A DNA stretch of 40,298 bases from Paracoccaceae bacterium. Its GTDB lineage: Bacteria > Pseudomonadota > Alphaproteobacteria > Rhodobacterales > Rhodobacteraceae. The stretch covers positions 1-40,298 of the forward strand of contig REDZ01000091.1 of assembly GCA_007695345.1 (NCBI GenBank), in the 5' to 3' direction. Below are positions 14,443 to 17,496 of this stretch, piece after piece. Numbering within the stretch: position 1 is the stretch's first letter; the number at the start of each line of letters is the position of its first letter. Under the pieces are notes generated by a model. The model was given only the letters and a program-made list of their open reading frames with translations. It did not search any database and was not told the DNA's origin. The position numbers and the translations under genes are program-made.

Positions 14443-14473
14443 TTATGCCCCAAACCGGGCAGGAAAGGCAGGA

Positions 14474-16261
14474 ATGCGGATACTTGTTTTCAACGCAGGC
14501 AGTTCATCGCTGAAATTCGGCGTATTCGATCTGGACCCCGGCGCACCGCTGGCGCGCGCGCAGCAGGTGTTCAAGGGCAGTTTTGACCGCTTCGGCCCCG
14601 AGGGTTGTGATGCCAGCCTGCCTTCGGGCAAGAGCCGCGCGCCCCATACCACCCTGGGCGACGCGATCCGCGCCGTCCCCGAGACGCTGGCCGGGCTGGA
14701 GGGGATCACGGCGGTTGCGCACCGGATCGCGCATGGCGGCGCGGCCTTTGCCGGGCCTGCGCGCATCACGCCAGAGGTCCGCGCACAGATCGCGGAGCTG
14801 AACCCGCTGGCGCCGCTGCACAACCCGGCCAATCTGGCGGCGCTGGACCGTGCCGCGCAGGTCTGGCCCGATTTGCCGCAATGGGCCGTGTTCGACACCA
14901 GTTTTCACCTGAGCAATCCCGCGCGCGCGACCACCTATGCCGTGCCGCGCGCATGGCGCGAGACGGGGCTTCGGCGCTACGGGTTTCACGGCACATCGCA
15001 TAAATACGTCGCCCAACGCGCGGCCGAGGCCTTGGGGCAGGATCTCCGCGACCTGCGCATCCTGTCGCTGCATCTGGGCAACGGGGCCAGCGCCTGTGCC
15101 GTGGCCTTCGGGCAAAGCATCGACAGTTCGATGGGCATGACCCCGTTGGAGGGGCTGGTGATGGGCACACGCTCGGGCGATGTGGATCCGGGGCTGTTCG
15201 GGTATCTGCACCGGCAACTGGGGCTGGATGCGACCGCGATCGAGCAGGCGCTTTACAGCGAGAGCGGGTTGCTGGGGCTGACCGGATCGTCCGACATGCG
15301 CGATGTCGAGGCGCGTGCAGCCAAGGGCGATGCCGAGGCGCAGCTTGCCATCAACATTTATGCCTACCGCGCGCGCAAATATATCGGGGCCTATGCGGCA
15401 GCGATGGGGGGGCTGGATGTCCTGGTCTTTACCGGCGGGATTGGCGAGAACGCGCCCGCCATGCGCCGGCGCATCTGCGACGGGCTGGAATTTCTGGGCC
15501 TGAAGCTGAATCATGACCGCAATCTGGCCGTGGATCTGCAGGGCAGGGCGGCCCCACAGGTTCAGGCTTTCGGCTCTCGCGTCAATGTGCTGGTCACCGA
15601 AACCGCCGAGCAATTGATGATCGCGCACGAGGTCGCCAATGCCATCGGCGCGCCCAGGCGCAAGGCGCTACGCGTGCCGGTGGCCGTGTCGGCGCGGCAT
15701 GTGCATCTGTGCGCGCGCGCGGTGACCGCGCTGTTTGGCGAGGGGTATGACCTGACACCGGGCAAGCCCCTGCGCCAGGAGGGGCATTGGGCCGCACAGG
15801 AACGCGTGACCCTGCACGGCCCGCGCGGCGAGATTGGCAATGTCGCGATCCTTGGCCCCTTGCGCAGGCGCACGCAGGTCGAGATTTCGCGCACCGACGG
15901 GTTCGCGCTGGGGATCGACGCGCCGGTGCGTCAAAGCGGGGCGTTGCAGGGCACGCCGCAGATCCGCCTGATCGGCCCGGCGGGGCATTTCGACACGGAT
16001 GGTCTGATCATCGCCGCGCGCCATATCCACATGAACAGCGCCGATGCAGAGGCCGCCGGGCTTGCCGATGGCGCGCGCGTGCAGGTGCATCTGGGAGAGA
16101 GCGCGCGCGGGCTGACATTTGACGATGTGCTGGTGCGCGTGTCGGATGACGCCTTTACCGAAATGCATATCGACACGGATGAGGCCAATGCCGCCGGGAT
16201 CGCTGGCGCGGTCGAGGGCGAGATTGCCCCGGTGGCTGCCCGCATTCCGGCGCAGGACTAG
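14474..16261 (+). CDS. Fused acetate kinase (N-term) - PduL-type phosphate acyltransferase (C-term), 595 aa
   Basis: AckA motifs: MRILVFNAGSSSLKFGVFD, RRYGFHGTSHKYV, LHLGNGASACAV, GMTPLEGLVMGTRSGDVDPG, FTGGIGENAP. From about residue 395 PduL motifs: RVPVAVSARHVHLC, LRQEGHWAAQERVTLHGPRGEIGNVAILGPLR..TQVEIS, IIAARHIHMN. Confidence 0.93.
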   Translation: MRILVFNAGSSSLKFGVFDLDPGAPLARAQQVFKGSFDRFGPEGCDASLPSGKSRAPHTTLGDAIRAVPETLAGLEGITAVAHRIAHGGAAFAGPARITPEVRAQIAELNPLAPLHNPANLAALDRAAQVWPDLPQWAVFDTSFHLSNPARATTYAVPRAWRETGLRRYGFHGTSHKYVAQRAAEALGQDLRDLRILSLHLGNGASACAVAFGQSIDSSMGMTPLEGLVMGTRSGDVDPGLFGYLHRQLGLDATAIEQALYSESGLLGLTGSSDMRDVEARAAKGDAEAQLAINIYAYRARKYIGAYAAAMGGLDVLVFTGGIGENAPAMRRRICDGLEFLGLKLNHDRNLAVDLQGRAAPQVQAFGSRVNVLVTETAEQLMIAHEVANAIGAPRRKALRVPVAVSARHVHLCARAVTALFGEGYDLTPGKPLRQEGHWAAQERVTLHGPRGEIGNVAILGPLRRRTQVEISRTDGFALGIDAPVRQSGALQGTPQIRLIGPAGHFDTDGLIIAARHIHMNSADAEAAGLADGARVQVHLGESARGLTFDDVLVRVSDDAFTEMHIDTDEANAAGIAGAVEGEIAPVAARIPAQD

Positions 16262-16286: not shown

Positions 16287-17375
16287 TCACGTTTCAGGTG
16301 TCCGCAGCGTTATTTCTTCGGCATTCACCATAGTGCGGATGCGCGCGGCGATGGCGGTCATCGCGGCCTCATGCGCGGGCGCATCGGGGCGGGTGACTGC
16401 TTCGGCGTCATCGCGCAGCGCATCGGCCCCGCGTTTGGACATGTTGTCGAGCAGAAAGGCAATCGCTGCGCTGTCCTCGGGGCGGGCGGCGGCGATCAGG
16501 GTCACCATATCCTCGGGCGGGTGCGCGCGCATCAGCGCGGGCACATCGTCAGGCGACAAGCGCTCGGGGATATCGTGAAAGGTAAAGATCGCGCTTCGTA
16601 CACCATCGGCATAGCCCTGATCGCCCTGCGCGATCTGCGCCAGCAGATCGTCACGTAATGTGGCGGTGGCAGCATTCAGGATCTCGCCCATCCGTTTGCC
16701 GGGCGGGGCGGCAAAGGCGCGCGGCGGGCGCGCGTTGATCTGTTCGGCCAGCGTGGCCCCGATCCGCGCGACGGTGCCGGGCGCGATGTCTGCCGTCCGG
16801 GCGATGCCCAGGGCCAGCGCGCTGGCCTGATCGGCGGGCAGGGCGTGCAACAGGCGCGCGGCCTTGTCCGTGCCCAGCTTGGACAGCAACACGGCGCCCA
16901 CCACCTGCGATTCGGCACGAAGGATGGCCAGCAGCGTGTCATCCGAGGCCAGATCCAGCGCGGTCCAGGGGTCATCCTGCCCGTTTCCGCGCGTCAGTGC
17001 GCGCAACTGGCGCGTGGCATCGGCATCAAGCGCGCCATCGAGCAATGACAGCGCCGCTTCCAGCCCGTCGGGAAAGGACACGCCGACCTGTTCCAGCATC
17101 TGGATGAATTCCTCGACCACGGCAAGCATGGTCGCGCGATCCACCAGCCGCATGCTGCCCAGGGTTTGCGTCAGGGTGGCCTGCATGTCCGGGGGCAGGG
17201 CGGAAACCGGGGTCTGCACCCCTTCGGCCAGCAATACGCGCACGATGATGGCGGCTTTCTGCGCGCCGGTCAGATGGTCAGTGCTGACCCTGCTGGCGGA
17301 TGTTGTCGGGGCCGCCCTGGCGGTCTGGGTCGGGGCAGCCGGGCGCGGGGCAAGCTGCGTCTGGTCTTGTGACAT
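16287..17375 (-). CDS. fliG: Flagellar motor switch protein FliG
   Basis: LTGAQKAAIIVRVLLAEG N-domain; C-domain IFTFHDIPERLSPDDVPALMRAHPPEDMVTLIAAARPEDSAAIAFLLDNMSKRGADALRDDAEA resembles FliG-C. MSQDQTQL start at 17375. Confidence 0.85.
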   Translation of the reverse strand: MSQDQTQLAPRPAAPTQTARAAPTTSASRVSTDHLTGAQKAAIIVRVLLAEGVQTPVSALPPDMQATLTQTLGSMRLVDRATMLAVVEEFIQMLEQVGVSFPDGLEAALSLLDGALDADATRQLRALTRGNGQDDPWTALDLASDDTLLAILRAESQVVGAVLLSKLGTDKAARLLHALPADQASALALGIARTADIAPGTVARIGATLAEQINARPPRAFAAPPGKRMGEILNAATATLRDDLLAQIAQGDQGYADGVRSAIFTFHDIPERLSPDDVPALMRAHPPEDMVTLIAAARPEDSAAIAFLLDNMSKRGADALRDDAEAVTRPDAPAHEAAMTAIAARIRTMVNAEEITLRTPET

Positions 17376-17458
17376 GCGGATCACACCATTGGACTCGGAC
17401 TGACCGAATTCTTGCCTGCGAAACATCAAGAAAAGGTTGAAAGCTCGGCACAGCCCCA

Positions 17459-17496
17459 CAAAAAAGCGCCCCGGGGCACGAAGCACGGGGCGCCAA
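17459..17496 (-). terminator. Rho-independent terminator (minus strand)
   Basis: Minus strand GCGCCCCG...CGGGGCGC followed by TTTTTT. Confidence 0.75.

Follow-up and report, generated by a model that had tools for sequence, protein, structure and literature searches.

The window analyzed here, a stretch of 40,298 nucleotides from the genome of a Paracoccaceae bacterium, carries a single frame in which an acetate kinase (AckA) is followed directly by a PduL-type phosphotransacylase, raising the questions of whether such a fusion is real, which reactions it would catalyze and what might be gained by joining the two enzymes. The frame was translated without interruption, in accord with the earlier note, which had described a single 595-aa chain lacking an internal stop, and a ribosome-binding-like motif (AGGAAAGG/AGGA, read by eye) was located 5' of its ATG (Table 1). 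The identity proposed there for both halves was confirmed by essentially full-length Pfam matches to Acetate_kinase and PTAC, with which NCBIfam agreed.

Table 1. Features of the ackA-pduL fusion gene (window positions) and catalytic residues of its product (protein numbering)
Feature	Position	Strand	Basis
ackA-pduL fusion gene, 595 codons plus stop	14474..16261	+	Translation, Pfam, NCBIfam, homologues
Purine-rich putative ribosome-binding stretch (AGGAAAGGCAGGA) upstream of ATG	14461..14473	+	Read from sequence
Acetate/propionate kinase domain, residues 3-384	14480..15625	+	Pfam PF00871; conservation in 85 fused homologues
Variable linker between AckA and PduL, about residues 393-398	15650..15667	+	AlphaFold2 secondary structure; alignment
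PduL-type phosphotransacylase domain, residues 402-576	15677..16201	+	Pfam PF06130; residue mapping to rPduL (5CUO/5CUP)
AckA catalytic motif residues	N7, R84, H116, D141, H172, N203, R233, E379 (fusion protein)		Conservation in fused homologues

The kinase half scored 405 bits with PF00871 (cut-off 22) and 389 bits with TIGR00016 (ackA, cut-off 293), the latter match being full-length and above the cut-off as in stand-alone acetate kinases (e.g. 2IIR). The motif residues were intact, with R84, H116, D141, H172, R233, D238 and E379 invariant in all 85 fused homologues and N7 kept in 84 of them. In contrast to the stand-alone enzymes, this half is extended C-terminally by PduL and has Ala86 in place of Val93.

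The PduL half matched PF06130 with 230 bits (cut-off 25) and PRK15070, phosphate propanoyltransferase, with 234 bits (cut-off 209). Residue mapping to the stand-alone rPduL (5CUO/5CUP) recovered both metal sites: the Zn1 ligands H48/H50/E109 correspond to H409/H411/E470 and the Zn2 ligands H157/H159/H204 to H517/H519/H565, the two His motifs picked out previously (ARHVHL and ARHIHM) being H409/H411 and H517/H519, respectively. The phosphate contacts R103 and S127 correspond to R464 and S488, which makes all metal ligands and phosphate contacts common to both proteins. Among the fused homologues, these metal ligands together with Q107, S127 and N211 (rPduL numbering) were identical in 85 of 85 and the R103 equivalent was kept in 84. 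Some of the CoA-contact residues, in contrast, differed from those of stand-alone PduL (rPduL R97 is A458 in the fusion). Unlike rPduL, the fused domain is joined to AckA and has no N-terminal encapsulation peptide, because it comes after the kinase with only a short linker in between. No microcompartment or propanediol genes were seen among the scanned neighbors of the fusion gene.

The AlphaFold2 model of the fusion, built on a 46-sequence alignment, was confident for both domains (mean pLDDT 89.7, pTM 0.80), and its secondary structure placed the last AckA helix at residues 379–392 and the first PduL strand at residues 399–406. The spacing between AckA Glu379 and PduL Pro402 was 22–31 residues in all 46 aligned homologues, the linker being variable in sequence and constrained in length.

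The fused frame was by no means restricted to the window. About 30 genomes of the same genus had it at 70–96% identity; PF06130 was present in 34 of the 37 genomes of the genus (23 of the 24 good ones), always in frames of fused length unless the gene ran into the end of a contig. Of 246 genomes sampled evenly from the order, 10 had PF06130, nine of them in the fused form and one (G126) in a stand-alone form, while the phylum sample gave 7 of 399, four fused and three stand-alone, the latter in family f72. Altogether, searches of genomes and of the GTDB contig collection gave 85 distinct full-length fused sequences with the same domain order, belonging to eight phyla: Pseudomonadota, Myxococcota, Bacteroidota, Planctomycetota, Acidobacteriota, Bdellovibrionota, Nitrospirota and Thermodesulfobacteriota. 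The chance that a sequencing error had joined two adjacent ORFs, a doubt raised in the earlier note, is vanishingly small, because the same uninterrupted frame is shared by the approximately 30 congeners, among them those with homologues of 70–83% identity, and by the 85 homologues, cultured isolates included.

Fusions of this kind have been described before. Erbilgin et al. (2016; PMC4784909) reported PF06130 in multidomain proteins without encapsulation peptide, mostly annotated as acetate kinases, for which they proposed replacement of Pta and an easier channelling. The window protein agrees with that description (AckA and PF06130 in one chain, no encapsulation peptide) and is one instance of what the passages in question give as a general statement, without biochemistry of a fused member. 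The suspicion that a well-characterized fusion family might already exist was, accordingly, half right: the fusion and the channelling idea have been known since 2016, while no biochemical characterization of any fused AckA-PduL was found in the non-subscription literature searched.

The family matches, the intact active-site residues and the genome context supported the pathway from acyl-CoA via acyl-phosphate to acid and ATP that had been assigned to the protein, which, judged from its sequence, is very likely a bifunctional phosphotransacetylase-acetate kinase pathway enzyme standing in for separate Pta and AckA. The PduL half would interconvert acyl-CoA plus Pi and acyl-phosphate plus CoA at its di-zinc site, and the AckA half acyl-phosphate plus ADP and acetate (or propionate) plus ATP; by analogy with the two families, both reactions would be reversible, with acetate as the main substrate and propionate use possible.

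In the host genome, AckA and PTAC each had a single match, the fusion gene in both cases, and neither a free Pta nor a second acetate kinase was found in this 91% complete assembly, on which all absences reported for the host rest. Two PTA_PTB matches were considered as additional Pta and rejected, as the proteins carry malic-enzyme domains. A supply of acetyl phosphate from phosphoketolase (Xfp) or sulfoacetaldehyde acetyltransferase (Xsc) was also rejected for the host, with no Xfp found in the genus and nothing above the curated cut-off for Xsc in the host genome. The fusion is probably the only means by which the host connects acetyl-CoA, acetyl phosphate and acetate while gaining ATP. Activation of acetate and propionate need not depend on it, since the host also has a PrpE-like (propionate-CoA) ligase and an Acs-like match that is strong, though truncated. 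Two congeners (G006 and G021, loci L107 and L108) had an Xsc gene and, a short way downstream of it, a stand-alone AckA of divergent sequence, and both of their genomes also carry the fusion.

A near-complete congener without the fusion, G010, had a stand-alone AckA adjoining a bifunctional enoyl-CoA hydratase/phosphate acetyltransferase (PRK08190), which suggests that this pair and the fusion replace one another. The same pathway steps are predicted for both systems, but in G010 the Pta belongs to the unrelated PTA_PTB family and resides on a separate chain, unlike the PduL of the fusion.

The fusion's neighbors in the window (pgm, a FliG-like gene and purB) gave no pathway hint. The neighborhood was rejected as a clue to function, with pgm and the FliG-like gene kept alongside in the genus and having no clear metabolic link. 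The FliG-like gene (window positions 16287–17486, minus strand), with FliG_N, FliG_M and FliG_C domains, adjoins the fusion and is conserved there in the genus; no other flagellar genes were present among the scanned neighbors.

As to what the joining of the two enzymes achieves, the earlier note had offered channelling of acyl-phosphate together with a balanced stoichiometry, which is plausible. We lean toward the reading that the fusion chiefly sets 1:1 expression and co-localization of two enzymes that are otherwise independent: the linker residues vary though their number is constrained, and congener G010 appears to run the pathway with unfused enzymes, although 1:1 expression alone does not explain why eight phyla have kept the fusion.

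True channelling, in which the AckA site would receive acyl-phosphate straight from the PduL site, unmixed with the acetyl-phosphate pool of the cell, is rather unlikely, even though the domain order is conserved with a short linker of near-constant length in eight phyla and the idea was already put forward by Erbilgin et al. (2016; PMC4784909). Xfp genes were found no more than a few kb away from the fusion at loci L013 (9174–11618, minus strand), L016 (7713–10298, plus strand) and L061 (7956–8807, plus strand), all in Hyphomicrobiales (genomes of Mesorhizobium, Devosia, Rhizobium or their relatives). Phosphoketolase releases free acetyl phosphate, and in these organisms the fusion probably takes it up in dissolved form and converts it to acetyl-CoA, or to acetate and ATP. 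This speaks against channelling being the only reason to join the two enzymes: with bulk acetyl phosphate needed as a substrate beside Xfp, strict channelling would not be its general purpose.

That the protein is chiefly a propionyl-CoA/propionyl-phosphate enzyme instead of an acetate enzyme is doubtful. The best-known PduL members are propionyl-CoA enzymes, and Val93 of acetate kinases, whose side chain touches the extra methyl of propionate, is replaced by Ala at residue 86; Ala occupied this position in most of the fused proteins from Alphaproteobacteria, and Val in every other one aligned. The substitution hints at propionate tolerance or a wider substrate range, but it is one residue only, and the AckA of S. 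typhimurium, with Val, already takes propionate. Furthermore, the PrpE-like ligase of the host and the absence of propionate or propanediol genes among those seen beside the fusion speak against this possibility. The preferred reading remains a pathway enzyme that would work mainly with acetate.

Besides the two-domain form, three-domain proteins of approximately 775 aa were encountered, consisting of a cyclic-nucleotide-binding-like domain (PF00027), AckA and PduL. The additional N-terminal domain of about 160 residues was present in 12 examined proteins (L034, L036, L045, L047, L049, L052, L062, L063, L073, L074, L075 and L121) from Nitrospirota (Magnetobacterium and relatives), Syntrophaceae/Smithella, other deltaproteobacteria and one alphaproteobacterium. 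The Pfam model cNMP_binding scored above the cut-off in all five proteins scanned whole (L036, L047, L049, L063 and L075) and in the N-terminal part of L121, while the remaining members were judged by frame length and translated N-termini. The ligand of this domain is uncertain: CRP binds the cyclic phosphate through an Arg, and in the two motifs inspected by eye (L036 and L049) the corresponding position seems to hold another residue. No publication on a combination of cyclic-nucleotide-binding, acetate kinase and phosphotransacetylase domains was found in the literature searched.

In quick maximum-likelihood trees of each domain, based on uneven sampling, the fused sequences clustered strongly but did not form one clean group. 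The myxococcal set (L051, L053, L056 and L059) stood apart in both domain trees, and stand-alone AckA sequences intruded among the fused ones, with Metarhizobium L070 nesting with the alphaproteobacterial fusions. With this intrusion and the separate myxococcal group, the trees are compatible with one origin followed by losses as well as with two or more origins.

Plasmid-borne copies were found in Paracoccus, Sinorhizobium and Polaromonas; of the four records, two were typed as conjugative, which suggests that the fusion gene travels. In the Sinorhizobium meliloti plasmid pSmeRU11d (L127, 7001–8798), the PduL half is split: a 524-codon kinase CDS precedes a second, short CDS for PduL/EutD. 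Next to this copy is a gene for a cation P-type ATPase, and related ATPases occur near the fusion at L011, L061, L064 and L030. The Polaromonas plasmid pPNAP02 (L129, 5236–9630) has the order fabI, AckA-PduL fusion, DUF3141, with polyphosphate kinase 2 and a heavy-metal ATPase nearby; fabI, which directly precedes the fusion here, adjoins the enoyl-CoA hydratase/Pta gene in congener G030. In the public plasmid records, the intact fused proteins bear no other name than acetate/propionate family kinase, an annotation gap that conceals the phosphotransacylase, so that the pathway seems incomplete.

The question raised by the locus is thereby settled in its main points: the fusion exists, is apparently functional and was already on record. 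It is quite improbable that the whole of a broader proposal holds, according to which AckA-PduL would be a widespread alternative to Pta-AckA that channels acyl-phosphate and, in the three-domain members, comes under direct ligand control through the cyclic-nucleotide-binding-like domain. The channelling idea of 2016 can be tested directly with the window protein and its split halves and, if true, channelling would let cells gain ATP from acyl-CoA with no rise in their acetyl-phosphate pool.
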